DNA of 26,986 nucleotides from a virus: positions 1 to 26,986 of the IMG/VR virus record IMGVR_UViG_3300043446_002583; one strand, written 5' to 3'. Under the pieces are notes generated by a model. The model saw only the letters and a program-made list of their open reading frames with translations. It had not been told where the DNA came from and made no database searches. Both the position numbers and the translations under genes were made by a program. This document shows, piece after piece, positions 4,377-26,986 of this stretch. Numbering within the stretch: the first letter of the stretch is position 1; each line of letters starts with the position of its first letter.

Positions 4377-4603
4377 ACAAGGTAGACGGGCGGTATATAC
4401 CCCCCCGGGCGTCCACAGAATCCGCGAACGTTGGGCGGCCGCCGCTCCCGCCGTTGCGATCGCCCCGCAATGCTGGGGATTGGCGGGAACCGTTGGCCAA
4501 TGCTCCCAGCAACGGCGCATTGTCATGCGGTGTAGCGTCAATGTAAACAATAGCGCATATTTGTGTATTTGCGTTTACGGCGTTGTAATGCGGTATTTCG
4601 TTT

Positions 4604-4638
4604 TCAAAACAACATTTGTTTCAATAATGTTGTTTTGA
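4604..4638. repeat. Perfect 12-bp inverted repeat
   Basis: TCAAAACAACAT (4604-4615) and ATGTTGTTTTGA (4627-4638) are exact reverse complements around an 11-base loop. There is no gene ending here, so a protein-binding site or cruciform is more likely than a terminator. Confidence 0.75.
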
Positions 4639-4651
4639 CAATGCTTTACAC

Positions 4652-5265
4652 TTGCCCCGCATTGTTGGCCAATGTTGGGCGGGGATCGCAACGGCGCCCG
4701 GCGTTGGCGTCAATGTTGGGAGCATTGGCCAATACGCAACGCCCCGCAATAGCCCCTATTTGCCCCTATGCGCTACGATACGGCGCTATCCTATACGACA
4801 CTACCCGCAACACCGCAAAACGCCGTATAGCGTTGCGGGAGCATTGGCCAACGTTGGGCGGGAGCAATGCCGGGCAATGCTGGGGAGCGTTGGCCAACAA
4901 CGCCGGACATTGGGCGGGAGCGCTGCCGAACGTTGGCCAACCAGCGCCGCGCGGATCGCCGGACATTGGGCGGGAGCATTGGCCAACCAGCGCCGGACAT
5001 TGGGCGGGAGCATTGGCCAACGTTGGGCGGGAGCGGCGCCGGGCAATGCTGGGCAATGTTGGCCAACAACGCCGGACATTGGGCGGGAGCATTGGCCAAC
5101 GTTGGGCGGGAGCGGCGCCGGGCAATGCTGGGCAATGTTGGCCAACAACGCCGGACGTTGGGCGGGAGCGCTGCCGAACGTTGGCCAACAACGCCGGACG
5201 TTAGGCGGGAGCGCTGCCGAACGTTGGCCAACCAGCGCCGGACATTGGCGCTACTTTTCGAGCGT
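4652..5265. repeat. Mosaic GC-rich tandem repeats with TTGGCCAA cores
   Basis: Twelve copies of the palindrome TTGGCCAA lie here (4665, 4725, 4844, 4890, 4933, 4979, 5013, 5059, 5092, 5138, 5181, 5224), with a thirteenth at 4492. GGGCGGGAGC occurs eight times exactly (4856, 4912, 4968, 5002, 5025, 5081, 5104, 5160) and once with one change (5203). The units are a 43-bp type (4901-4943, 5149-5191, 5192-5234) and a 79-bp type that contains extra elements. No frame bias or start site supports coding. Confidence 0.88.
4991..5148. repeat. Perfect tandem duplication of a 79-bp unit
   Basis: 4991-5069 and 5070-5148 are identical base for base. Each starts CGCCGGACATTGGG, contains two TTGGCCAA palindromes, two GGGCGGGAGC elements and the GGCGCC palindrome. 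The lack of any difference points to recent duplication or ongoing homogenisation. Confidence 0.92.
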
Positions 5266-5322
5266 TGAAATATGAGTAATTTGCTAGGATTTGTCATATA
5301 TCCAAAAACGCCTCAATTTGGC

Positions 5323-5350
5323 GACAATGTGACCACCCAGTCACATTGTC
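5323..5350. repeat. Perfect 11-bp inverted repeat
   Basis: GACAATGTGAC (5323-5333) and GTCACATTGTC (5340-5350) are exact reverse complements around a 6-base loop. No T-run follows on either strand, so a protein-binding site near the AT-rich repeats fits better than a terminator. Confidence 0.75.
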
Positions 5351-5425
5351 CGCAAAACATGCGTTACTATACACATGTGTTATGTTGTTATGTTTGCCAC
5401 TTTAGCGCATCATAGACACTAAAAA

Positions 5426-5450
5426 AACATAACACCCCCCCTGTTATGTT
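5426..5450. repeat. Perfect 9-bp inverted repeat around a C-run
   Basis: AACATAACA (5426-5434) and TGTTATGTT (5442-5450) flank seven C bases. The arm contains the ATAACA word that recurs downstream. Confidence 0.7.
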
Positions 5451-5480
5451 CGTGTTATATTGTTATATTCGCCTCAAAAA

Positions 5481-5562
5481 AAACATAACAACATAACAAC
5501 ACATAACACATATAACACCATATAACAACATAACACGATATAACACATATAACACCATATAA
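5481..5562. repeat. AT-rich ATAACA repeats
   Basis: The word ATAACA recurs many times here, and a 23-base stretch ending CACCATATAA is repeated exactly at 5503-5525 and 5540-5562 (37-base period). The tract is far richer in A+T than the flanks, as expected for a duplex-unwinding element beside iterons. Confidence 0.82.
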
Positions 5563-5580
5563 GAGAATAAATAAGAGTAA

Positions 5581-5747: not shown

Positions 5748-6179
5748 CTACAAACCGTTCCGCATTGCGTCGAACCGTTTCGCCCGTTCGGCGTCAACGT
5801 ACCATAGAAGATCGCCGAACGCGTCCACGTCGTGGCACGCCTCCCGATATCGGATATACAACCCGGTACAAATCCCGAACACGTCCGCCGTTTCCGCCGT
5901 CAAATCTAACCGTTTCCGGAATTGGATAGCGGCGCTGGTTTGGTTCAACCGCGACAACGTATCAATTTTAGCGGCATGATCCAACACTACTCCCCAGCGT
6001 TGCGCCTCCTCGGGCGGGAGAATGTCCACATAGTCGCTATACATCGCCGTCGCAATTTTGGCACGTTCCAACAGCGCCGGCATAACGTCGTCATTGCCGA
6101 TACAATCCAAACAAATCACCCGGCGCCCAACGGTTTTAATGCCACAAAACCGGCATAACATCGCCGTACTATGAAACAT
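5748..6179 (-). CDS. Zinc-ribbon-containing hypothetical protein
   Basis: A 143-residue protein, last gene of unit 1. The N-terminus carries LCRFCG (residues 8-13) and ICLDCIG (22-28), two CxxC pairs that make a small zinc ribbon. The remaining 110 residues are helical and charged without a recognised family. It starts at 6179 after AAGGGGAAACCA, overlapping the primase-helicase stop by 11 bases. Its place after the primase-helicase suggests a replication or transcription accessory role, but that is inference. Confidence 0.75.
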   Translation of the reverse strand: MFHSTAMLCRFCGIKTVGRRVICLDCIGNDDVMPALLERAKIATAMYSDYVDILPPEEAQRWGVVLDHAAKIDTLSRLNQTSAAIQFRKRLDLTAETADVFGICTGLYIRYREACHDVDAFGDLLWYVDAERAKRFDAMRNGL

Positions 6180-8271
6180 TGGTTTCCCCTTTCGTCAAAT
6201 AGAACAAATCCGTTGCCGCAATGCGGTTATCCTGAATTTGAAGCATACCCAAAATACGCAATAGTTTGTAATAATCGTCGTCTTCCTTCGCCTCGAGTAG
6301 TGCCGCGCGGTACTCAATCGGTACCCGTTTCCATATGTCGTCCGTGATTGGCCGCCATCGGTACCCCTTCGCCCCAAACATGCCCGGCGCTGGTTTATCA
6401 CTCACCGCAATCGATACGTCAATCTTGACGCCGTTCCCCAGCGCCTCGCTGATTTCCGCCGGCGCAAATGCCTTACGGACGCGATCCCCCACCGCTTGGT
6501 ATTTGCCCCGGCCAATTTTCCCGATATACCCGTCAGATTCCAACCGCCCCAATATCATACGTACGTTAGTTGTGGTTTTATCCACTTTGGCGGCAATGTC
6601 GCCGGCGTCGTGGGGTTCGCCGTCAATGAAACATTTCAGTACCCGCCGGCGTTCGCTCCCTACGATGATTTCGACGGCGTCCGCATCTTCGATACGGTGG
6701 CAATTGTGGTACATATCCCAGATAAGCGTAATTGGTTCCTTATCCGGCAAATTTCGGAACCGGGTATCGAGAATGGTAGCGTTTTTGTCCTTATCACTAC
6801 GCTTAATAATGAGCGTTCCGTCAACGGCGCCGGTTAACCCCGTTGTTCCCGATACCTCATCAAATGGATCATCGCTTTTCGCCTTCCGGGTATGGTGAAT
6901 CAAACAAATAACCACGTTGTGTTTGTGTGCCAACCGCTGAATTGGTTTAATTGCGTTGTAATCCTGTGCATATGCTGGGGTTCGTGGATCCGCCGGTTCG
7001 CGGAAGTTTTGCAATACGTCAATTACGACAAACCGTACTTTTGGGTTTGACGTCAAATACCCGTCTAATTGCGCCAACGCCTCAACCCCGCGTAAATTCC
7101 ACGTTTCACTAAATCCGAAATGCAACCCCGCCGGCCATGTTTCGTTTAGTAGATGCATCAGTTTCAACCGCTGGGAAATGCCGTTTTCATTGCCTTCCAA
7201 ATCGAGATATAACGCTTCGTGTTTCGTTGCGTTGAAACTGCCGAACACCATTCCGCCTTTCGCAACTTGTAACAACACATGAAGCATTAGCCACGATTTT
7301 TTAGACTTGGGTTTACCAACGACCAGATAACACCCGGGGATAAATAACTCGTCAACGATGAAATCCGGCGGCGCAAATTCGATACCCTGTAAATCGGCGG
7401 CCGTAATCGTTTTGGGCGGTACAAATGCGACGGTTTCGAGCGGCGGCAATTTGTAAATGCTGGTTGGATCGTCGGTGTACTTCAAATAGTCGCATACGTC
7501 GCCGCCCTTATCCAATCCCAAATCAACCGTACGGGCAATGTAGCGAAATCCGATTAATTGCGATTGTAATTTGACGGCCGCATTGCGTCCGGCAATGTCG
7601 CAATCCAGCGCTATCACAATATGGTTGCCCGCTGGGTATTTGCTTACCAACTCTTCGAGCAGCGTTTCCGATACGGTGCGTTCGCTCCCCGTGGTTTGGC
7701 AAAACGTCGGCAAACCCTTAATTTGGCCAACCACGGCGGATATTTCCCCGTTCACCATGATTAACGGCGTTTTGGTTTTGGCGGCAATGTCTAACGCCTC
7801 GGCTAATAAATACCAGCATGAGCGGTACCCCTTCGCATGTTGGTACCGGGGTTGCATACCGTCCAAATAGCGGTAGCGCTCCCCAGAACGGGTTATAAAT
7901 CGGAACCCGTTCCGTTTCCCGCTGGTGTAGACGTGCCACCCATAGCGGGTTAATTGCTCAACCGTAACGCCGTGATCGGCGGCGTATTCCTCGGCGGTTT
8001 GCGCCCGCTTGGTATCGGCGGCGCGCGGTTTCTCCCGTTGTATGCCGCACATATCCGCCAATGAGTACAACGAATACCCGGCGTTGTTGCGGGTTCTGTC
8101 TACCGCCGTGCCGGATTCGTCGCCGGTAATCATCACCTCGAAACTCTTACTATCCGCCGTTGGATCCCACGGGCGATTACCGATATAAACGCCGTCTTTC
8201 GTTTCGACAAACCCGCGCTCTAATAGATAGTCAATCACCCGGCGGGCGGTACTGGTATTACTAATATACAT
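6169..8271 (-). CDS. TOPRIM primase / RecA-like helicase (RepA/AAA_25 type)
   Basis: A 700-residue replication protein. Residues about 165-255 form a TOPRIM domain with Glu176 (MVNGEIS) and the ALDCDIAG motif (Asp223, Asp225). Residues about 295-500 form a RecA-fold ATPase: the Walker A variant GKPKSKKS (319-326), Walker B VVID (415-418) and LIHHTRK (457-463), all typical of the RepA/AAA_25 helicase group. After about residue 520 there is a winged-helix-like segment (AGDIAAKVDKTTTNVRMILGRLESDGYIGKIGRG). I see no zinc-binding primase domain at the N-terminus. It presumably unwinds and primes phage DNA with host polymerase. No DNA polymerase is encoded. The start site is weak (AGG 8 bases before the ATG), just after a hairpin at 8287-8313. 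Confidence 0.9.
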   Translation of the reverse strand: MYISNTSTARRVIDYLLERGFVETKDGVYIGNRPWDPTADSKSFEVMITGDESGTAVDRTRNNAGYSLYSLADMCGIQREKPRAADTKRAQTAEEYAADHGVTVEQLTRYGWHVYTSGKRNGFRFITRSGERYRYLDGMQPRYQHAKGYRSCWYLLAEALDIAAKTKTPLIMVNGEISAVVGQIKGLPTFCQTTGSERTVSETLLEELVSKYPAGNHIVIALDCDIAGRNAAVKLQSQLIGFRYIARTVDLGLDKGGDVCDYLKYTDDPTSIYKLPPLETVAFVPPKTITAADLQGIEFAPPDFIVDELFIPGCYLVVGKPKSKKSWLMLHVLLQVAKGGMVFGSFNATKHEALYLDLEGNENGISQRLKLMHLLNETWPAGLHFGFSETWNLRGVEALAQLDGYLTSNPKVRFVVIDVLQNFREPADPRTPAYAQDYNAIKPIQRLAHKHNVVICLIHHTRKAKSDDPFDEVSGTTGLTGAVDGTLIIKRSDKDKNATILDTRFRNLPDKEPITLIWDMYHNCHRIEDADAVEIIVGSERRRVLKCFIDGEPHDAGDIAAKVDKTTTNVRMILGRLESDGYIGKIGRGKYQAVGDRVRKAFAPAEISEALGNGVKIDVSIAVSDKPAPGMFGAKGYRWRPITDDIWKRVPIEYRAALLEAKEDDDYYKLLRILGMLQIQDNRIAATDLFYLTKGETNVS

Positions 8272-8286
8272 AGTGGTGCCTATGAT

Positions 8287-8313
8287 GCCGCCCGGGGTTT
8301 CCCCACGGGCGGC
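8287..8313 (-). ncRNA. Intergenic hairpin before the primase-helicase gene
   Basis: GCCGCCCG (8287-8294) pairs with CGGGCGGC (8306-8313), with inner GGG/CCC pairs around TTT and one bulged A. It fills the gap between the SSB-like gene and the primase-helicase gene. There is no T-run after it on the minus strand. It may lower read-through or protect mRNA. Confidence 0.6.
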
Positions 8314-8328
8314 GGTAGATGCGGATTA

Positions 8329-9111
8329 TTAGAACGGTTTAATTTCGTCATCGGCGTACGGTTGGGGTTCGTTGTGGGATTCCTCGCGCATATGAACGGG
8401 CAATGGTTGGGCGTCGTGTCCGCCCCGGCGTTGTTTCGCCCAATCGGCAAATTGAATCACCAATTCCGCGCCCAGTTGCAACCGTTCGGTGCCAACGTAC
8501 AATTTGTTGATTGTATCCATTGACGGTTCATATTTGGGGTTACATACCGGGATTGTTACGGTAGATCCGTGCCCCGTGCTGGTGTAGACGGGTTGCCCCT
8601 TCTTGTCCGTTGGCGGTACGATTGGGATATACAACGCCCAACCCGGGAACGCCATTTTCCCCGATTTGCGGGCAAATGCGCCAATGCTGGTATGGAACGT
8701 TTCCATTACGCCGCCCTTGCCATAAATTGCCCGGCTAATCATGCCCTTGGTTACCAGTACCGCCGGTTCGTCGATGCCCCGTACAAACCCGATTTGCTCG
8801 CTATATTTTCGGCTGCCGGGTTCGTAATGTCCTAACCAAACCGTACGTTTCGTTTGGGGATCCGTGGTAAACCACTGCTCCCGGTACGCAATTGGCGCAA
8901 ACCACAATTCCCCAGTGCTATACCCGTCCTCGTCCGGGAACCGTTGGGAAACCGCCCAACCCTCCCCAGCGTCCGCGGTTTTGGTGTAGAATTCGCCGTT
9001 GGTGCGTACCGTTTTGGCGTCTACCCCGTTGAAATAGTAGATGCGCGGCAGATTGTCGCCCGTGGTTTCCTGTTTGTAATCCAATCCTTTGATGTCGTCA
9101 AAAATACTCAT
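8329..9111 (-). CDS. Probable phage single-stranded-DNA-binding protein
   Basis: A 260-residue protein directly before the primase-helicase. The body is beta-rich with many aromatic residues (GELWFAPIAYREQWF, GWALYIPIVPP), compatible with a DNA-binding OB-type fold, but I do not recognise a named family. The C-terminus is disordered and ends ADDEIKPF, which imitates the acidic tip ending in Pro-Phe of bacterial SSB proteins (DDDIPF) that recruits partner enzymes. It starts at 9111 after GGAGGAGAACCAGTA. SSB is an inference from the tail and position; a recombination or nucleotide-binding protein remains possible. Confidence 0.6.
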   Translation of the reverse strand: MSIFDDIKGLDYKQETTGDNLPRIYYFNGVDAKTVRTNGEFYTKTADAGEGWAVSQRFPDEDGYSTGELWFAPIAYREQWFTTDPQTKRTVWLGHYEPGSRKYSEQIGFVRGIDEPAVLVTKGMISRAIYGKGGVMETFHTSIGAFARKSGKMAFPGWALYIPIVPPTDKKGQPVYTSTGHGSTVTIPVCNPKYEPSMDTINKLYVGTERLQLGAELVIQFADWAKQRRGGHDAQPLPVHMREESHNEPQPYADDEIKPF

Positions 9112-9305
9112 TACTGGTTCTCCTCCATACGAATACCGCGCGCGGCGGCCGCTTCAATAATACACAACCGAATAATCCGGGAAATGCTGGGCGGCGCCCC
9201 CGCCTTGGATTTCATGAGTTGTAACCCGATTTCCCACAACGCCCGCATTTCCCCCGCCGTTATGCTGATGTTTTGGCGGTACCACTTCTTCGTTTGTTCC
9301 GTCAT
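9111..9305 (-). CDS. Ribbon-helix-helix-like small protein
   Basis: A 64-residue protein (starting MTEQTKKWYRQN). I chose the ATG at 9305, which follows GGGGGG and overlaps the upstream stop as ATGA, over one nine codons earlier. The pattern QNISITAGEMRALWEIGLQLM, then SISRIIRLCIIEAAAARG, matches strand-helix-helix. It is coupled to the SSB-like gene by TAATG. A DNA-binding regulator is plausible. Confidence 0.65.
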   Translation of the reverse strand: MTEQTKKWYRQNISITAGEMRALWEIGLQLMKSKAGAPPSISRIIRLCIIEAAAARGIRMEENQ

Positions 9306-9478
9306 GCCGTCCCCCCTTGCGCCCGGATCCATACCCGGGCGCGCGCTAATGCCTCATCAAATTTCAATTCGGCGGCGGTGTAGACTTCGCGCCGCTCGAA
9401 TACCACAATAGCCAGATACCCGCCGGATTTGGTTGTATAGACGTTCACCGTATACGCGCCGTATTTGTAGGATTTCAT
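9302..9478 (-). CDS. Small hypothetical protein
   Basis: A 58-residue basic protein (starting MKSYKYGAYTVNVYTTKSGG, ending RAQGGTA). It is short and easily missed, but ATGA overlaps on both sides fix it in the operon: its start lies in the stop of the gene at 9475-9756, and its stop lies in the start of the 9111-9305 gene. It has a beta start and a helical end (TAAELKFDEALARARVWI). Function unknown. Confidence 0.72.
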   Translation of the reverse strand: MKSYKYGAYTVNVYTTKSGGYLAIVVFERREVYTAAELKFDEALARARVWIRAQGGTA

Positions 9479-9756
9479 AGTATACCATCACTTACGCCGG
9501 CGTTTTTACTCACGATCCCCGCCCAGCGTTCCAACTCATACGCCGCCGCATTGCGTACCGTCCGTATCATGTTGGCCAATTGTTCGGCGTTGCGGACGTT
9601 GTCGAATTGCTGCCGAACGATTGGGAGCGCCCCGGGTTCCCGGGCGTCAATATATGCGGTTGCTGTCCAATGCGTAGCCCCCATTGGTTTTACACAATCA
9701 ATAAACAGCGTTACGCCCTCCCGCAAATCGTGGTATTCCTGAAATTGATACATCAT
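9475..9756 (-). CDS. Hypothetical protein
   Basis: A 93-residue protein of unknown function. The chosen ATG at 9756 follows GGGGGA and 9 bases; eight more codons upstream are open but overlap the previous gene. The first half looks like beta strands (GVTLFIDCVKPMGATHWTATAYIDAR), the second is helical (NAEQLANMIRTVRNAAAYELERWAGIV). Confidence 0.68.
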   Translation of the reverse strand: MMYQFQEYHDLREGVTLFIDCVKPMGATHWTATAYIDAREPGALPIVRQQFDNVRNAEQLANMIRTVRNAAAYELERWAGIVSKNAGVSDGIL

Positions 9757-9760
9757 GGTA

Positions 9761-9970
9761 CTAATTCCCCCAGTTCGCAATAATTGCGCCGTACACGTTC
9801 ACCACGTCCGCCCAACGCTGGTAAATGAACCCGTCCAAATAGCGGCCGTCGATCATAACCGTAGCCTTGATGCGTTCCGCCGTGATGAAACGGACGGGCG
9901 TAATCGTGATTGTGTGTTTGCCATTGGTTGCCACAAACGGGCGGGGTAATTCGCGGTACTGCTGGTTCAT
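9761..9970 (-). CDS. Small MNQQY-type gene of the hairpin cassette array
   Basis: A 69-residue protein (MNQQYRELPRPF...). Its body is a small beta-rich basic protein of unknown function. It shares the first five residues MNQQY with the gene at 10293-10526 and MNQQ with 10585-10800, at DNA level ATGAACCAGCAG, while the bodies do not align. It follows 48-bp block A (9980-10027). Confidence 0.68.
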   Translation of the reverse strand: MNQQYRELPRPFVATNGKHTITITPVRFITAERIKATVMIDGRYLDGFIYQRWADVVNVYGAIIANWGN

Positions 9971-9979
9971 GTTCCTACT

Positions 9980-10027
9980 CTCCTTGTTGGTTGGGCGCCG
10001 GGGATTTCCCGGCGCCCGGGCGGTTGT
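9980..10027 (-). repeat. Intergenic hairpin block A
   Basis: A 48-base block filling the gap between two small genes. Arms GGGCGCCGGG (9993-10002) and CCCGGCGCCC (10008-10017) enclose a 5-base loop. On the minus strand it is followed by AACCAACAAGGAG, the ribosome site of the next gene. It is identical to block B. Confidence 0.92.
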
Positions 10028-10237
10028 CTAGTAATGCGTAAATGTTGCGATATACTCGGCGCCGTCAATAAACGTAATCGAATATACGCGAATTGTTGCG
10101 GTTTTGTCTACCAATGTTTGCATACCCTTATTTAATTCCCGCATGTGGTTTTTCGTCGCCTTGTCGTGTGCCAACCCGCGCAAATGCCCAAATTGTAGAA
10201 TTACGCCCGTTGGGGTTTTGAGTGTTACAAGTTTCAT
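10028..10237 (-). CDS. Small gene of the hairpin cassette array
   Basis: A 69-residue basic protein (MKLVTLKTPTGVILQFG...) of unknown function. It lies between blocks A and B and starts after AAGGAGAACCAGCA. Beta segments flank a Lys/His-rich middle (LAHDKATKNHMRELNKGM). It lacks the MNQQ start of its neighbours, but its ribosome site contains the same GAACCAGCA word. Confidence 0.68.
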   Translation of the reverse strand: MKLVTLKTPTGVILQFGHLRGLAHDKATKNHMRELNKGMQTLVDKTATIRVYSITFIDGAEYIATFTHY

Positions 10238-10245
10238 TGCTGGTT

Positions 10246-10293
10246 CTCCTTGTTGGTTGGGCGCCGGGGATTTCCCGGCGCCCGGGCGGTTGT
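10246..10293 (-). repeat. Intergenic hairpin block B
   Basis: Second copy of the 48-base block, identical to block A. Arms at 10259-10268 and 10274-10283. It starts right at the stop codon of the upstream gene and ends at the ribosome site of the downstream gene. Confidence 0.92.
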
Positions 10294-10526
10294 TATTCCT
10301 CGATCAATTCCAAATCACGAATGTTGTACTCGTACATAATTGGCGTTTTGGTAGTGCGGCACAAACCGGCATTGCACATAATGTAATTGCCTTTTTTGTC
10401 CGGCGTGAATGAATACCCAACGATTGCGCCGGATCCCATTACTACCCGTTTCAACCGTTCCCCAGTAACGGCGGTTACGATGCTCCCGCGCCCAAATCCC
10501 TTTAATACTCGGTACTGCTGGTTCAT
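10293..10526 (-). CDS. Small MNQQY-type gene of the hairpin cassette array
   Basis: A 77-residue protein (MNQQYRVLKGFGRGSIV...). The first 50 residues are Gly-rich beta (TAVTGERLKRVVMGSGAIVGYSF); the end holds two cysteines (MCNAGLCR) and an acidic tail. Function unknown. It sits between blocks B and C. Confidence 0.68.
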   Translation of the reverse strand: MNQQYRVLKGFGRGSIVTAVTGERLKRVVMGSGAIVGYSFTPDKKGNYIMCNAGLCRTTKTPIMYEYNIRDLELIEE

Positions 10527-10536
10527 GGTTCCTTTT

Positions 10537-10584
10537 CTCCTTCTTGGTTGGGCGCCGGGGATTTCCCGGCGCCCGGGCGGTTGT
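10537..10584 (-). repeat. Intergenic hairpin block C
   Basis: Third copy of the 48-base block, one base different from A and B (C for G at the seventh base). Arms at 10550-10559 and 10565-10574. Same position between a stop codon and a ribosome site. Confidence 0.92.
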
Positions 10585-10800
10585 TTAGATCTGATTAAAC
10601 CATTCGGGCATTGGTTCGCCGTTGTACCCCATCATAAGCGCCGTTGCGTGGTCATCTTGGCCGGTGCGTTCGAACGCTTCCGCCACCAATTCGATATTTG
10701 GCGCGTTCAATTCGCGCATCTGCCGTCCAATCATGAATACGTTTTTGATTGTCAACAACTCGGCCTTGGTGCGGATTTTGGCGGTAAACTGCTGGTTCAT
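10585..10800 (-). CDS. First gene of unit 1; small MNQQ-type protein
   Basis: A 71-residue helical protein (MNQQFTAKIRTKAELL...) directly after the unit 1 promoter. The site AAGGAG lies 8 bases before the ATG. It is probably among the first phage proteins made. The sequence has no cysteine or membrane segment, and ends GEPMPEWFNQI. I recognise no family. Early small phage genes often act on host functions, but nothing here shows the target. Confidence 0.72.
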   Translation of the reverse strand: MNQQFTAKIRTKAELLTIKNVFMIGRQMRELNAPNIELVAEAFERTGQDDHATALMMGYNGEPMPEWFNQI

Positions 10801-10838: not shown

Positions 10839-10867
10839 ACTATACACCATATGTAATTATGTGTCAA
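10839..10867 (-). promoter_or_regulatory. Sigma-70-type promoter of unit 1
   Basis: On the minus strand TTGACA (10862-10867), a 17-base spacer, then TATAGT (10839-10844). It is near-perfect consensus and lies 39 bases before the first early gene, in AT-rich sequence just after the structural terminator. Confidence 0.88.
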
Positions 10868-10917
10868 TACCAAAATACCAATATCATGCAAATATCATGT
10901 AATTCTCATAAAACACT

Positions 10918-10952
10918 ACGCCCGCGTCAATGCTAGCAATTGACGCGGGCGT
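10918..10952 (-). terminator. Terminator of the structural genes
   Basis: Arms ACGCCCGCGTCAAT (10918-10931) and ATTGACGCGGGCGT (10939-10952) pair perfectly around a 7-base loop. On the minus strand AGTGTTTTATG follows, a short T-run. It lies between the last tail gene (stop at 11008) and the unit 1 promoter. Confidence 0.8.
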
Positions 10953-11007
10953 AATGCACGTTATTAGTGATCTAGTTTTTCCACCAGATACCAACACCGG
11001 CATTATA

Positions 11008-11478
11008 TCACGGAATAGCGCCGGTGAGTTGCACAATAGATAGTATTGGGGATTCCTGCAGCACGCCTTCGGCGGCAACGTTAAGCGTTGTATTTGCGGA
11101 CGGCGTAACGGTTATACGTAGCGTATCACCGGTTGAGTAGTACCGCATAAATGCGCCAACGTGTCGCGTCGTTGCGGTTGAGTAAAACATAAAATTCCCT
11201 ATCAATGTCCCGTTCACCGTGACAGATGCAAACCCGGTAACGTTTGCCGCATATTGGAGGGATAATTCCAACAAGTAAAACCCGCTGGTTGGTATGGTTA
11301 CGTCGGTTGTTGCCCACGTAATCCCAATACCGCGCGTTTGTGATTGCCATGTAATCACCGTTCCCGTTGACAAAACCGCTAATGATGCCGTTCTCGTCAA
11401 TGTCAACGCCGCAAACGGCGTTTCGTTGCGCCGTACTACTTCCGCCTGTCGTTGATCAAATTGGTTGCTAGATTGCAT
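11008..11478 (-). CDS. Distal tail protein with C1q/TNF-like jelly-roll
   Basis: A 156-residue protein, last of the tail genes. After a short N-terminal helix rich in Gln and Arg, residues 20-155 are all short beta strands with the pattern of a compact jelly-roll (TIPTSGFYLLELSLQYAAN, ASVTVNGTLIGNFMF, DTLRITVTPSANTTLNV). This layout fits the C1q/TNF-like head domains found in phage receptor-binding proteins. It overlaps the hub gene by 11 bases. Host binding is inferred from fold impression and position after the hub. Confidence 0.65.
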   Translation of the reverse strand: MQSSNQFDQRQAEVVRRNETPFAALTLTRTASLAVLSTGTVITWQSQTRGIGITWATTDVTIPTSGFYLLELSLQYAANVTGFASVTVNGTLIGNFMFYSTATTRHVGAFMRYYSTGDTLRITVTPSANTTLNVAAEGVLQESPILSIVQLTGAIP

Positions 11479-13514: not shown

Positions 13515-14411
13515 TTAAATCCCGTCGTACCGGGTATAGTACTGTAATTGTACGGCGCTGGTGCTGGTTGCGCCGGTGCCCGCTATGGTAATGGTATTGA
13601 CGCCGCCGGGCGCCTCGGGATCCGCCGCAACGTTCCACGTAGCCAGCGTTGACGCCGCCGTAATTTCGCCGTACCGATTGGCGCCCAAATCATCTATTAC
13701 GGTTTTATATCCGTACTGTAGATTGATTGTGTACGTTCTACCGGCGGCAATTGCGGCGTTAAATGCGATAACGTCCCCAGTGCTGTTATTTGTGATTGTA
13801 AGGCCTGTAATTGGGCCGGTACACGTTATAATTGGGTACGTTTCGGCGCTCCCGTCGTTTGTAATCGCCGATGTTGTTGCTATGGTTGACGTTCCAAATG
13901 TAAACGGTACAACAAACGGCACAACCGTGGGCGTACCCGCAACCGTGGGCGTTGCAATGAATGTAACCGGCGTCGGATCGTACCACGTTGGATCATCGGC
14001 GCGCAATTGTACCGCGGTTTTGATGTAGTACCCCTCGCCCTGCACATGATCGAATACCAACCCGCCCAACGGCCGGACATTTACGGTACGGATTAGCGAT
14101 CCATTGGTTACGGTGAGGGTACCGCCCACGTTTGACGGACGAAACATTTTAATAAGCGTTTGCCGGGCGATGCCTTGCGCCTCCAACGTTTGGGTTTGTA
14201 TAAGCAACGGTACCACAATAACGCGCGGATCCTTCCGGTAATCAACGGTTGTTTCCCCCTGTTGGTATGCGCCCCGTTGGGTAATCAGATGAAACGGCGT
14301 TAACCCGTGGCCAATATCCCCCAAATACTCAAACGTTAGCCCGCTGGTTGCATCGTACCCGGTTAAATTCCATGTATACGCCCCGCGTGTATATGTGAGT
14401 GAGTATGCCAT
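13515..14411 (-). CDS. Distal tail protein (Dit-like)
   Basis: A 298-residue protein directly after the tape measure gene, the place of Dit. The N-terminal 130 residues follow the Dit pattern: FEYLGDIGHGLTPFHLITQRGAYQQGETTVDYRKDPRVIVVPLLI, then helix and strand with QTLIKMFRP. Next comes a beta-sandwich extension (residues about 150-290), which can act as a carbohydrate-binding or arm domain. The family call rests on the N-terminal pattern and position. It begins in the tape-measure stop codon (TAATG). Confidence 0.78.
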   Translation of the reverse strand: MAYSLTYTRGAYTWNLTGYDATSGLTFEYLGDIGHGLTPFHLITQRGAYQQGETTVDYRKDPRVIVVPLLIQTQTLEAQGIARQTLIKMFRPSNVGGTLTVTNGSLIRTVNVRPLGGLVFDHVQGEGYYIKTAVQLRADDPTWYDPTPVTFIATPTVAGTPTVVPFVVPFTFGTSTIATTSAITNDGSAETYPIITCTGPITGLTITNNSTGDVIAFNAAIAAGRTYTINLQYGYKTVIDDLGANRYGEITAASTLATWNVAADPEAPGGVNTITIAGTGATSTSAVQLQYYTRYDGI

Positions 14412-16309
14412 TATGCGCCCCCGTATACCGCTTGTAACGTCCGTAAATCGCTTAATATATTTGATTCACTTTGTGTATTGGCGTAGTTTGCCGTCAAGTT
14501 ATAGTAATTGTTGACTGTTGCGCCTGCTGCCATTGCCCCGGCATATTCGGCGGCGCTTGTCACCGTTGGAACGCCGGCGGCAATACCGGCGGCGATGCCC
14601 TGACTAAATGGAATTCCCACGGTTTCCGCCATAAGTTTTGACGGCGACGCAATGCCCAGAAACTTTTTTACCGCCTCCCATGCGCTCGAAACGGCGTTTA
14701 GTAGCGCGTCCCGTACTTTGGCCGCGTTGGACGTAATGCCATTTACTAACCCTTGCACCATTTGAGCGCCGGCGGTTGCAAATTTGGCGATCAATCCCGC
14801 TAAATATGTTTGTATGCTATTGATTGCATTGGAAACAACCGTTTGTATGTCGCTCCACACTTTAGTAAATGTTGATTGTAGCGCTATCAACGCCCCGGCG
14901 GTATCTCCCGCTAATGCCTGCTGTATTGCGCCCAAAACCGCGGAAACAATCGGCATCACGTAATTTAACGCCGCTACAATCGCATCAAATGCAATTACGA
15001 AATACGGCGCCAATTGAGTTACGGCATTAATCAAATCCTGAATATAAATAGAATATAGGGTTATAAAAATATCGGCAATTTGCCCGGCAACCGTGGTAAT
15101 GTAGCCAAATGCGGAAACCACGGCGGGCGATTGGAACGCCGCCACAATCCCGGCGCCAATTGCTACTAACTGGGGAATTAGTACCCCCGTAACGTCGATA
15201 ACCCGTTGGACGATCGGCGCCAAAAATTGAAACGCCCCAACCAGTACCGTATACACAATGTTTCCAACGTTCGATAATGTCGCCCCGATTGCCGCCCAAT
15301 CAATCGAAACCAGAAACCCGTAAAACGATGCGGCCAAATCGGCAACCGTTGCCCCAACGCTCGCCCAATCTATGCTACTGATTGCATTACCGATACCCGA
15401 AACGCCGGTACTAATCCCATCAAATACCGTACCCCATTCCACGGAATCCACAAATGCGGTAAATGCACCCGCCATTTGCTCCACAGCGGGAACGGCGTAC
15501 GCTACTAACAAATTCCCCAACTTGGATAAAATCGGTAATAGCGCCTCCCCAATCCCTTGTTTGACGTCGTCGAGTTGGGCGGTTAGTACCGTCATCTGTC
15601 CGGCGTATGTATCAACGGCGGCGGCGGCGCTCCCGCCGAATTCTTTATTGAGTTCCCCCAAAATTACCGCTTGGGCGCCGGCAATGTCGCCGGCCTCTTG
15701 GAGCGTTTTAATTTGTTCCTTTTGTTGTTCCGTAAATGATACGCCAACCCGGGATAATGCCGAAACGCCGTTTATTGGATCGTTAAGCGCTTTACCCACT
15801 TGGATTGATGCGCTTTTTAAATCCGTTCCCAGCGCTTGGGAAATGTCTAATACGGCCTGCGTTGCGTTGTCGAATGACAACCCGTTAATGTTGGTAAACG
15901 TGGCTAGCACATTTTCGGCGCCCAAAATTGCATCATCTGAAAATAACGACATACCGGACGCGGCGCTTAATTCCTCGGCCAAAAACCCGAATTCCTCGGC
16001 GGTTTTCCCGGCGGCGCCGCCCGTCGATGCTATCACCGCCTGCGTTTGCGCTAATGCGCTTTCCCACGCCGTCGCCTCGCTGATGGATTGACTAACGATA
16101 TTCCCCAACGCCGCTAAACCGCTCCCAACGGCGTTAATAGCCGCCTCACCAACCCGGCGTAATGCGCCGGTTGCAATTTCCCCGAATACGTTTAAACCGC
16201 CGCCCGCGGTGTTGGCGGCGGTTGTTATTTTGTCTACCGATTGGGCGATATTGCCGGCGGCGGCGCTCGCGTTATCCTGTGCTACAAACTCTAATATGAT
16301 TTGCGCCAT
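14411..16309 (-). CDS. Tape measure protein
   Basis: A 632-residue protein, the longest structural tail protein. It is Ala/Gly-rich, helical at the start (IAQSVDKITTAANTAGGGLNVFGEIATGALRRVGEAAINAV), with a conserved tape-measure block around residues 95-260 (LAEELSAASGMSLFSDDAILGAENVLATFTNI, then KALNDPINGVSALSRVGVSFTEQQKEQI). The middle has hydrophobic segments (VQRVIDVTGVLIPQLVAIGAGIVAAF) that may insert into the host membrane during injection. The C-terminal part holds AQMVQGLVNGI and FLGIASPSKLMAETVG, well known in tape measure proteins. At about 0.15 nm per residue the tail would be roughly 95 nm. It starts after GGGGGACGC. Confidence 0.95.
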   Translation of the reverse strand: MAQIILEFVAQDNASAAAGNIAQSVDKITTAANTAGGGLNVFGEIATGALRRVGEAAINAVGSGLAALGNIVSQSISEATAWESALAQTQAVIASTGGAAGKTAEEFGFLAEELSAASGMSLFSDDAILGAENVLATFTNINGLSFDNATQAVLDISQALGTDLKSASIQVGKALNDPINGVSALSRVGVSFTEQQKEQIKTLQEAGDIAGAQAVILGELNKEFGGSAAAAVDTYAGQMTVLTAQLDDVKQGIGEALLPILSKLGNLLVAYAVPAVEQMAGAFTAFVDSVEWGTVFDGISTGVSGIGNAISSIDWASVGATVADLAASFYGFLVSIDWAAIGATLSNVGNIVYTVLVGAFQFLAPIVQRVIDVTGVLIPQLVAIGAGIVAAFQSPAVVSAFGYITTVAGQIADIFITLYSIYIQDLINAVTQLAPYFVIAFDAIVAALNYVMPIVSAVLGAIQQALAGDTAGALIALQSTFTKVWSDIQTVVSNAINSIQTYLAGLIAKFATAGAQMVQGLVNGITSNAAKVRDALLNAVSSAWEAVKKFLGIASPSKLMAETVGIPFSQGIAAGIAAGVPTVTSAAEYAGAMAAGATVNNYYNLTANYANTQSESNILSDLRTLQAVYGGA

Positions 16310-16317
16310 GCGTCCCC

Positions 16318-16500
16318 CTATTTGCGCCGGGATTTATCCTTTGCCCGTTGCGCCTGCCGTTCCCCGTCAATCATCGCCAACGCCCGCATACATTCCGCAT
16401 AACTGGGGAGTTGATCCGGCGGGCAGTGATAGACATCACGACATAGAACCAGTTTTAAATACTCCATCGGCGCGGGTTGTTTGGTGTAGATATGTGCCAT
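16318..16500 (-). CDS. Probable second tail assembly chaperone
   Basis: A 60-residue protein between the first chaperone candidate and the tape measure gene, the position of the lambda T-like part. It has PPDQLPSYAECMRALAMIDGERQAQRAKDKSRRK, a helix with a strongly basic tail. It has its own start site (AAAGG, 8 bases, ATG), and is in the -1 frame relative to the upstream gene, open continuously back into it, so translation by frameshift is also possible. The two reading options cannot be separated by eye. Confidence 0.65.
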   Translation of the reverse strand: MAHIYTKQPAPMEYLKLVLCRDVYHCPPDQLPSYAECMRALAMIDGERQAQRAKDKSRRK

Positions 16501-16511
16501 AACCCGCGCCT

Positions 16512-16745
16512 TTAGGATTTTAGCGGCGCTTGTCCTACCCCGTTCCGGTTGAGAATTGCGGTGAGTATGTCCGCCATATCCCCCAGCGGGATTGTTGACA
16601 TATTCACGGTTTCATCTTGGATAACGAACCGTTCTAAAATTGGGCGGATTGCCCGAATACTGCGCGTTTCTTGCGCCTCTTCGATGCGGCAGGCATCGTC
16701 AATGGATAACGGCAAATCCCGTATTTTGTACTTTGTGGTTGTCAT
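16512..16745 (-). CDS. Probable tail assembly chaperone
   Basis: A 77-residue protein (starting MTTTKYKIRDLPLSIDDACRI). I chose the ATG at 16745, two bases after the major tail gene, over a longer frame that overlaps it. The position between major tail protein and tape measure, plus its helical acidic composition, is that of the gpG-type chaperone that holds the tape measure during assembly. The sequence itself is not diagnostic. Confidence 0.68.
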   Translation of the reverse strand: MTTTKYKIRDLPLSIDDACRIEEAQETRSIRAIRPILERFVIQDETVNMSTIPLGDMADILTAILNRNGVGQAPLKS

Positions 16746-16746
16746 A

Positions 16747-17196
16747 TTACACCGTATGCGTGATAGTGCCCGATGCGACGGTAAACGAACACATAATAGG
16801 ATCACCCGAATCCCCATTAAACCCGGGGTAATCAATGCTGATGATTTTCCCCGTCACGGTGTACGTATCGGCGCCGGCCGTGCTGCCGCCCGGGGTAAAT
16901 TTCACGTCCACCAGCGTACCCGTTGACGCCTCAAACGCGGACAATGCCACTTGATACGCCTCGGTTGTCGATTCGGTGTAAATCACCATAAACGTTGCTT
17001 CGGCGCCGTCCTGTTTGCCGTATGTCATGCTGGGGTAATCCTGATCAAGCGGGTACGCTTTCCCGCTTTTGCGGGTTACCGTTGCCTGCTCTACCGCCTG
17101 CGATGATCCCGAAATATCAGACCATGAACCCGTACCGCTGGGCGAACGAATTTCTAGTTTGCCGTATGCGCCGCTCATCTGTCCCGTTGTTGCCAT
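16747..17196 (-). CDS. Major tail tube protein
   Basis: A 149-residue beta-rich protein with the major-tail-protein pattern. It opens with GQMSGAYGKLEIR and DISGSSQAVEQATVTRKSGKAYPLDQDYPSMTYGKQDGAEATFMVIY, has one central helix (TTEAYQVALSAFEAS) and ends with a strand pair (YTVTGKIISIDYPGFNGDSGDPIMCSFTV). It would form the hexameric rings of the tail tube. A good ribosome site (AAAGGGG) precedes it, as expected for an abundant protein. Confidence 0.85.
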   Translation of the reverse strand: MATTGQMSGAYGKLEIRSPSGTGSWSDISGSSQAVEQATVTRKSGKAYPLDQDYPSMTYGKQDGAEATFMVIYTESTTEAYQVALSAFEASTGTLVDVKFTPGGSTAGADTYTVTGKIISIDYPGFNGDSGDPIMCSFTVASGTITHTV

Positions 17197-17202
17197 GACG
17201 TG

Positions 17203-17658
17203 CTACCCCTTTACTATATCCTTAATATGAACCGTAATAACAACCGCATTGAAATAATTCCCCGATGCGGCCGGATATTCCAAAACCGGAAACGTTCCCG
17301 ATACGCTCGCCCGCGTCCAATCAATCGTCCCCAATTCCCGCACTAAATCGGCGTACATTTCGGCGTATGCGGTGACGTCGTATGCCATATCCCCCAACCC
17401 ACGCCCCAACCCGGCATTGCGGTATAGCAGAATATCCGAAATGATCCAATCAATTGTAATGTTGAACGGCGGGCGCATGGAAACGCTCTTTACGTCCGCA
17501 AACTCGAAATTGGTTACTTGTAATACCCTACACGGGAGATCCGCCTCATAGTAGCCGTTTTTCATCGTTGCGTTATAGTACACGGGTACAATGTTTCCGT
17601 TTACTTCCACGGGTAACGCCGCTATGTCGTCGAGTATGTCGAGTAAATGCGCTGCCAT
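17203..17658 (-). CDS. Tail terminator / completion-type protein
   Basis: A 151-residue protein between the head-tail connector and the tail tube. Its middle holds MRPPFNITIDWIISDILLYRNAGLGRGLGDMAYDVTAYAEMYADLVRELG, a strand followed by a long helix, and it ends in a strand pair (YFNAVVITVHIKDIV). The layout and position match proteins that cap the tail and join it to the head. The family is inferred mostly from order. Confidence 0.65.
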   Translation of the reverse strand: MAAHLLDILDDIAALPVEVNGNIVPVYYNATMKNGYYEADLPCRVLQVTNFEFADVKSVSMRPPFNITIDWIISDILLYRNAGLGRGLGDMAYDVTAYAEMYADLVRELGTIDWTRASVSGTFPVLEYPAASGNYFNAVVITVHIKDIVKG

Positions 17659-18473: not shown

Positions 18474-18524
18474 ATAATCCCCATTGGGCGCCGTGGGGAT
18501 CCACCACGGCGCCCGCTGTGTTCA

Positions 18525-26275: not shown

Positions 26276-26307
26276 GCCCGCGCCGTTTAGCATGGAACGG
26301 CGCGGGC
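26276..26307 (-). terminator. Strong hairpin after the coiled-coil gene
   Basis: GCCCGCGCCGTT (26276-26287) and AACGGCGCGGGC (26296-26307) pair perfectly over 12 bases, just after the stop of the coiled-coil gene. On the minus strand AATGTTTAGG follows, so the T-run is poor. It may be a leaky terminator that lowers the small-gene messenger before lysis and structural genes, since no good promoter is visible downstream of it. Confidence 0.7.
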
Positions 26308-26312
26308 GTGGT

Positions 26313-26960
26313 TTATTTCATTACCCGGCGAATATAGACGGCCAAATCGTGTAAGTAATCCCGCACTTGCTGTATAGCGCTATCCCCTTGCAAAAATCCC
26401 ATACGGATTAAATAATTGACGTCCCAAATTTTCGCCCATACTATATCCTCGATTTGCTGCCGATTGAGTACCGTATTTTCCAAACGGGTTATTTTGGCGT
26501 TCATAGCGTCGATAATAACCCGTTGTTCGTCCACCCGCTTTAGTGCGGCGTTGGCCGTTGCCATTGCGCTATTTGCCGCCGTTCGGGCGGTTGCAATTTC
26601 TTGTTTTAATAGCGCTACTTGGTTTTCGTTAATGTCAATCACGGTTGCGCTGGGGATATCGTCCCAATAGACGAACCCGGCTATTTCAATTTCGTATTGT
26701 CGTTTGTCGTTGCCGGTGTATACCAAAAACAATTTTTTGTTATTGATGAGTAATCCGCCGTTGGCGTCCTTCGCAAATGCGACCAATTCGGATTTTTGCC
26801 CGGGTTTGGTTCGCCAAATATGTATACCCCAATCGCCGGCGGCGGTTTGTTTTCCAACAATCTGTTGGTAGATAACGCCGGTTCGATCTATGTACGTCCA
26901 CGCGCCCCCAGCGCTATACGCTTCCATCGGCGCCGGTAATGCGATTACGTCGTTTTTCAT
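26313..26960 (-). CDS. Coiled-coil phage protein, possible virion or fibre protein
   Basis: A 215-residue protein with three parts: a beta-rich N-terminus (residues 1-110; GGAWTYIDRTGVIYQQIVG, GDWGIHIWRT, KLFLVYTGNDKRQYEIEIAGFVYW), a long coiled coil (112-165; NQVALLKQEIATARTAANSAMATANAALKRVDEQR and MNAKITRLENTVL) and a helical C-terminus (166-215). No family is recognised. A trimeric fibre or spike-like part before the lysis genes is possible. Residue 37 is Lys here and Arg in the partial copy at 1-237. Confidence 0.7.
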   Translation of the reverse strand: MKNDVIALPAPMEAYSAGGAWTYIDRTGVIYQQIVGKQTAAGDWGIHIWRTKPGQKSELVAFAKDANGGLLINNKKLFLVYTGNDKRQYEIEIAGFVYWDDIPSATVIDINENQVALLKQEIATARTAANSAMATANAALKRVDEQRVIIDAMNAKITRLENTVLNRQQIEDIVWAKIWDVNYLIRMGFLQGDSAIQQVRDYLHDLAVYIRRVMK

Positions 26961-26986
26961 TGCGTTGCCTCGCTCGCTGTAATTGG
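26724..26986. repeat. Right copy of terminal direct repeat
   Basis: This stretch equals bases 1-263 except for five substitutions. It contains the 5' half of the coiled-coil gene and the last 26 bases lead into the HTH gene at 191-475, as expected for overlapping ends. Confidence 0.93.

Follow-up and report, generated by a model that had tools for sequence, protein, structure and literature searches.

Stem-loop and ribosome-site joints between small genes of a presumed early operon in an uncultured tailed phage

Repeated intergenic stem-loops among small early genes are reportedly a feature of T4-type phages, where the PeSL cassettes (promoter-early stem-loops; attributed to Arbiol et al. 2010 and Comeau et al. 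2014) are said to join an early promoter to a terminator and recombination between the copies is said to mediate gene shuffling. In T7, hairpins between the early cistrons are processed by RNase III; they delimit the units of the mRNA and make its 3' ends more stable, and we know of no role of these sites in cassette exchange. Integron gene cassettes are promoter-less small genes, each of which lies beside a hairpin-forming attC recombination joint. The PeSLs of T4-type phages are treated in two citing papers (PMC4503421, PMC3950731). The SAS/ESAS of cluster K mycobacteriophages are repeats at the ribosome sites of small non-structural genes, some of them with an upstream inverted repeat: the arms of ESAS reportedly do not support pairing at the RNA level (PMC3203893) and harbour putative SigA-like promoters (PMC11373665), and similar start-associated motifs occur in Microbacterium phage clusters EF and EG (PMC7302621).

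The locus described here lies in a virus record of 26,986 bases (hereafter the window, meaning the whole stretch of DNA that was analysed) and contains a repeated boundary element of phage small genes: the kind is already known, this variant is new. As with SAS/ESAS, the repeats sit at the ribosome sites of small non-structural genes, in part with an inverted repeat upstream, are lineage-specific in sequence and are attached to genes of different families. As with PeSLs, the cassettes are repeated among small genes, and in two relatives of the window (L019 and L020) an indel ends exactly in the blocks. The position of hairpins between presumed early genes of one transcript recalls T7, and the placement of promoter-less small genes beside a hairpin joint recalls integrons.

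The array in the window and its genome setting

The window is siphovirus-like as judged by its terminase, portal, head, tape-measure and minor tail genes. Apparently all of its genes lie on the minus strand, with most of them abutting or overlapping; the genes, blocks, start contexts, hairpins and promoter-like site to which window coordinates are assigned here are all on this strand. The last structural gene (11008–11478) is followed by a terminator-like stem-loop that, from folding and sequence, closes the structural operon and leads into TGTTTTA on the minus strand (10913–10957), then by a strong promoter-like site (TTGACA-17-TATAGT, 10839–10867, 11 of 12 positions matching) and by four small genes with blocks C, B and A. 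The count of promoter-like sites in this region does not exceed that in shuffled sequence and hence the position of the site weighs more than its score. Downstream of the array come other small genes, a gene of 260 amino acids that is kept in relatives (8329–9111) and a helicase-primase gene recognised through family profiles (6169–8271; AAA_25 and a Toprim-like stretch). From its position, the operon of the array is presumed to be early.

Elsewhere in the window, the ends (1–263 and 26724–26986) repeat each other at 98%, not 100%, the genome being circular or terminally redundant and assembled with a few differences. Dense repeats around GTTGGCCAACGTTGGGCGGGAGC (4417–5270) are followed by AT-rich repeats of the ATAACA type (5403–5571) within a non-coding gap of 1.2 kb (4417–5571), and this repeat-rich gap is a candidate replication origin. 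As to the host, there was one weak match to a Saprospiraceae MAG contig and cultured relatives are too distant, so that we propose none.

The array comprises gene 1 (10585–10800; 71 amino acids, MNQQF...), gene 2 (10293–10526; 77 amino acids, MNQQYR...), gene 3 (10028–10237; 69 amino acids, MKLVTLK...) and gene 4 (9761–9970; 69 amino acids, MNQQYR...), open reading frames whose four products gave no family match in PHROG or Pfam. Sequence, repeat comparison and folding place block C at 10537–10584 (stem 10550–10574), block B at 10246–10293 (stem 10259–10283) and block A at 9980–10027 (stem 9993–10017). Direct comparison bears out what the original prediction had claimed for them: three blocks of 48 bp, A and B identical over this length and C differing at one base, each with a perfect 10-bp stem and each filling its gap from stop codon to ribosome site. 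On the coding (minus) strand the blocks read ACAACCGCCC GGGCGCCGGG-AAATC-CCCGGCGCCC AACCAACAAGGAG, with a loop of 5 nt (AAATC) and the SD as the end of the block; each starts at the stop codon of the upstream gene (block B overlapping gene 2 by one base) and ends in the ribosome site of the next. The repeat itself exceeds 48 bp and continues through the SD into the starts of genes 2 and 4 (MNQQYR).

Genes 1, 2 and 4 start alike (ATGAACCAGCAG), with gene 1 (MNQQF) having this shared start without a hairpin. The 18-nt start context of gene 3 (AGGAGAACCAGCAATGAA, 10233–10250) has a second exact copy at 2014–2031 (expected number 0.00), also without a hairpin, and recurs with two mismatches at 9107–9124. 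Given the shared starts at genes 1–4 and at 2014–2031, the genome has start-associated repeats both with an inverted repeat (genes 2–4) and without one (gene 1 and 2014–2031), and it is in this layout that the comparison with SAS/ESAS made in the original prediction stands. It fails in other respects: the 13-bp SAS consensus GGGATAGGAGCCC is absent from the ribosome sites, where the window contexts are AAGGAGA... and AGGAGAACCAGCAATGAA, and in place of the 17-bp imperfect inverted repeat of ESAS, with its SigA-like promoter and arms that do not pair as RNA, there is a perfect 10-bp stem (perfect or compensated when the relatives are included) without a promoter. The genes between the blocks had also been held to be unlike each other, which is nearly right, although genes 2 and 4 show a weak similarity past the shared start (4 of 1000 shuffles are as good, this pair being the best among the many compared). 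For the array genes, SD pairing ranges from −8.5 to −9.3 kcal/mol against a median of −7.5 kcal/mol for the other genes (p = 0.04), which is strong, not unique.

The promoter-site scan of the window placed no promoter in or beside blocks A–C. This speaks against a DNA operator, in which the palindrome would be bound by a DNA-binding protein of phage or host origin that regulates the early genes, as proposed for ESAS; such a site would be in keeping with the perfect dyad and its several identical copies in the window, with lineage-specific sequences as in ESAS (PMC3203893) and with the ribbon-helix-helix-type gene just past the array in L019. However, the sites are found strictly between stop codon and SD, inside the operon, and the stems of L019 and L020 include three G-U positions, which pair in the sense transcript alone and would be mismatched in a DNA dyad. 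We consider an operator quite unlikely.

Related arrays and gene gain or loss between blocks

Searches with short exact patterns returned neither the exact 37-bp block nor the stem with any loop among the matches listed for IMG/VR, nor the stem among the matches listed for 84,980 genomes, and comparison of the block with phage and plasmid records gave just short or weak GC-rich matches. No relatives were found through the 260-amino-acid protein alone or the helicase alone. The terminase led to the closest relatives, L004 and L005, both of which end before the array, and searches with the tail protein and the helicase led to the three relatives used for the key comparison: L019 and L020, whose tail protein is 52% identical to that of the window, and L058, with 41% identity in the helicase (L021 is a near-duplicate of L020, at 99.8%). 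The proposal to look for the block in related contigs had a divided outcome, with the exact block in no other record searched but the same layout of stop codon, hairpin, SD and start codon lying between unrelated small genes in all three relatives, with differing gene content and two hairpin sequences other than that of the window. Since the architecture recurs in independent records with other sequences, an assembly artefact is unlikely.

L019 has five copies of the block CACCGCGCCCCACTTGGCCAGAGCTGGGTGGGGCGC, the SD-bearing copies continuing with an SD such as AAAAGGAGATTGAG; L020 has three copies of the same type and one odd hairpin; L058 has three copies of a third hairpin sequence. Leaving the odd hairpin aside, the hairpin parts of SD-bearing copies in L019 and L020 are 92–100% identical within and between the two genomes and 82–86% identical to the SD-less end copy. 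Identity is 72–88% within L058 and about 65–70% between L019/L020 and L058, although the DNA identity of the gene adjoining the first block is 74%. In all three relatives, the array starts after the homologue of the 260-amino-acid gene and ends with an SD-less copy, a TATAAT promoter-like stretch and a ribbon-helix-helix-type gene; the end copies have T-rich tails and in L019 and L058 are terminator-like, beside the operon end, whilst the blocks of L019 and L058 that carry an SD showed no promoter. The array of the window comes before the 260-amino-acid gene and those of the relatives after it: the likeness is therefore one of architecture, the place differs, and we make no claim of common descent. 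L019 has a start-associated repeat of its own, with the hairpin at 6517 and 8619 and without it at 6169 and 7495. One of its array genes gave weak zinc-finger-type matches, the other array genes being without a family match.

No arrays were found in L026, L064, L066 and L067, which belong to another branch. In this branch a conserved, terminator-like stem with a T-rich end occupies the gap that precedes the helicase (L026 12407–12444, L064 3089–3126, L066 9944–9977, L067 9945–9982). In L065, tandem GTGGTTTAC repeats and a long palindrome follow the helicase gene (2854–2979), with a similar arrangement in L026, L064 and L066, and may represent an origin in this array-less branch.

Around the array, L019 and L020 are about 90–98% identical. 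Positions 6208–6531 of L019 match 16033–16356 of L020 and positions 8569–9602 match 16292–17326, so that a single block of L020 is the counterpart of two in L019, between which lies a stretch of four genes and 2.1 kb: the order is c-block-h in L020 and c-block-d-e-f-g-block-h in L019. In the aligned joint, the L020 block follows the c–d type as far as the SD, from where it runs into gene h. Beyond the first block, the genes of L019 and L020 are unrelated. Judged from this alignment, genes were gained or lost exactly at the blocks, either direction being possible, and the suggestion in the original prediction that the blocks could be recombination joints is thereby borne out in these relatives. 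Recombination at the blocks in the lineage of the window itself would be an extension from relatives whose tail protein is 52% identical. One and the same pair of flanking genes encloses eight small genes in L019, three in L020 and two in L058; L019 and L020 have two of them in common, and L058 shares none bar one weak match.

Profiles for tyrosine and serine recombinases (PF00589, PF00239) gave no match in the window or in the records of L019, L020 and L058, which are possibly incomplete, and we accordingly assume ordinary homologous recombination. The attC core pair RYYYAAC ... GTTRRRY flanks the hairpin at none of the seven junctions inspected, which together with the lack of an integrase match sets the blocks apart from integron cassettes.

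Two further observations concern changes in gene content. In L020, a direct repeat of 33 nt at a gene start (14394–14426 and 14668–14700) flanks an extra gene (14422–14703) that is absent from L019, a gain or loss without a hairpin. In L019, the neighbouring array genes b (5889–6167) and c (6180–6473) are diverged paralogues (27% identity, z 17.5), so that tandem duplication feeds the array too.

Folding of the spacers

For each spacer of the window the folding energy is about −26 kcal/mol (z −3.6 to −4.0), a value that none of 200 shuffles reached. When the stems are aligned, 94.6% of cells are paired and three pairs are altered on both sides; the sliding-partner control gave 39–52% paired. 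Covariation is 0.230 compared to 0.138 in shuffles, a value to be read in the light of the set, which contains 11 sequences but effectively two or three groups and hence about three events rather than eleven, and of the fact that palindromic DNA sites would also covary, which counts against covariation as an RNA-specific sign. In case of L019 and L020, sense folding of the stems is better than antisense by 3.7–9.7 kcal/mol (L020_2 and L058_2 show the opposite); the perfect stem of the window is uninformative on strand, its antisense folding better owing to the loop. Rfam 15 gave no matches at the gathering score in the window, L019 or L058.

A hairpin that exposes or hides the SD was also considered. 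Within a calculation on six junctions, including the three of the window, forbidding arm–arm pairs in silico shifted SD opening by +0.8, −0.2 and −0.1 kcal/mol in the window junctions; this near-unchanged opening energy does not support such a switch, and any translational role would have to act otherwise than through SD exposure. The RNA element of the original prediction has indirect support from placement, compensatory stem changes and G-U pairs, but the calculation does not favour a device that opens or hides the SD.

Hairpins are also found elsewhere in the window, with a strong one in every non-origin intergenic gap of at least 50 nt. The hairpin scan located single hairpins in the gap before the helicase-primase gene (8287–8313, unrelated to the blocks), after the major head gene (18486–18514, GGGCGCCGTGG...CCACGGCGCCC, identical in L005) and in the gap preceding the endolysin gene (26276–26307). 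On the coding strand, all eight of the most stable 40-nt hotspots (−25 kcal/mol or below) are intergenic, and at a cut-off of −18 kcal/mol this is true for 10 of 31 (binomial p = 2.6e-5), with gaps making up 6.8% of the window. At roughly the corresponding place ahead of its endolysin gene, L005 (5973–6006) has a hairpin that differs from that of the window (26276–26307), in a region with an unrelated left flank.

That the other long gaps of the window hold hairpins of unrelated sequence, and that stem pairs are kept while the sequence is replaced between lineages, both bear on the possibility of a recombination by-product: the blocks would then be homologous joints only, homogenised together with the ribosome site, and the stem would have no RNA role beyond that of the first copy, for example as an old terminator. 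These two observations argue against a by-product, which would otherwise account for an indel that lies exactly between blocks, for copies that are homogeneous within genomes and for terminator-like end copies beside the operon end in L019 and L058; on balance we regard it as unlikely.

On the coding strand of blocks A–C no U run follows the hairpin, and the combination of GC-rich stem and U run that marks an intrinsic terminator is thus lacking. The sequence after the SD-bearing blocks is AACCAACAAGG, which is difficult to reconcile with transcription attenuators at which RNA polymerase would partly halt at each hairpin and gene dosage would fall stepwise along the array; despite the very stable GC stem and the T-rich tails of the SD-less end copies, we judge attenuation very unlikely. 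Stem length, which is 10 bp in the window and 14 bp in L019, bears on mRNA processing of the kind that takes place between T7 early genes, by a nuclease specific for double strands. Hairpins between the genes of one presumed early transcript, with self-contained units on either side, would be compatible with such sites, yet a stem of only 10 bp is not the irregular long stem to be expected, known RNase III substrates having longer stems, and processing is highly improbable.

Proposed cassette joints at the level of translation

Comparison with PeSLs reveals that the blocks of the window carry an SD and neither a promoter nor a U run: no sigma-70 early promoter lies inside the cassette, the stem-loop lacks the make-up of a terminator, and in L019, L020 and L058 a promoter-like TATAAT is seen only beside the SD-less end copies. 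The unit formed by a block would hence be translational rather than transcriptional. That L019 and L020 differ by four genes lying between two blocks is, on the other hand, a PeSL feature, and PeSLs are in effect the closer analogue than SAS/ESAS; as the blocks share some features with each of these classes and lack others, we place them in neither.

We consider it probable that the blocks, each of which would combine an RNA stem-loop with a ribosome site and double as a recombination joint, serve as standard joints in an array of small-gene cassettes, the array being part of the presumed early operon of this uncultured tailed phage. The parts of such a joint would be, in order, the stop codon, the stem-loop, an A-rich single strand with the SD and the start codon. 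The stem-loop would most likely set apart the small genes on one transcript as self-contained units, insulating neighbouring translation units and capping the mRNA segment ahead of it against decay from the 3' end, with the SD outside the stem-loop remaining single-stranded. Being near-identical within a genome, the joints could offer homologous recombination a fixed site at which a gene between two joints may be added, dropped or exchanged with reading frame and ribosome site left intact. The same recombination may keep the copies alike within a genome while their sequence drifts between lineages.

The locus speaks to an open question, namely by what route phages acquire and shed their many small early genes while the operons stay intact: the joints are short and readily located, and a pair of close relatives differs by genes that lie exactly between two joints. 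As a tentative and more far-reaching proposal, a family of uncultured phages may possess a cassette system that needs neither promoter nor integrase, in which a joint of stop codon, hairpin, SD and start codon, uniform within a genome and replaced as a set between lineages, would allow small early genes to be plugged in and out ready to translate, the RNA stem being under selection and the DNA identity serving recombination. If this is true, a repeated spacer of hairpin and SD would mark exchangeable genes in uncultured phage genomes and allow them to be found without homology, and it would represent a cassette joint that acts at translation, rather than at transcription as in PeSLs or via an integrase as in integrons.
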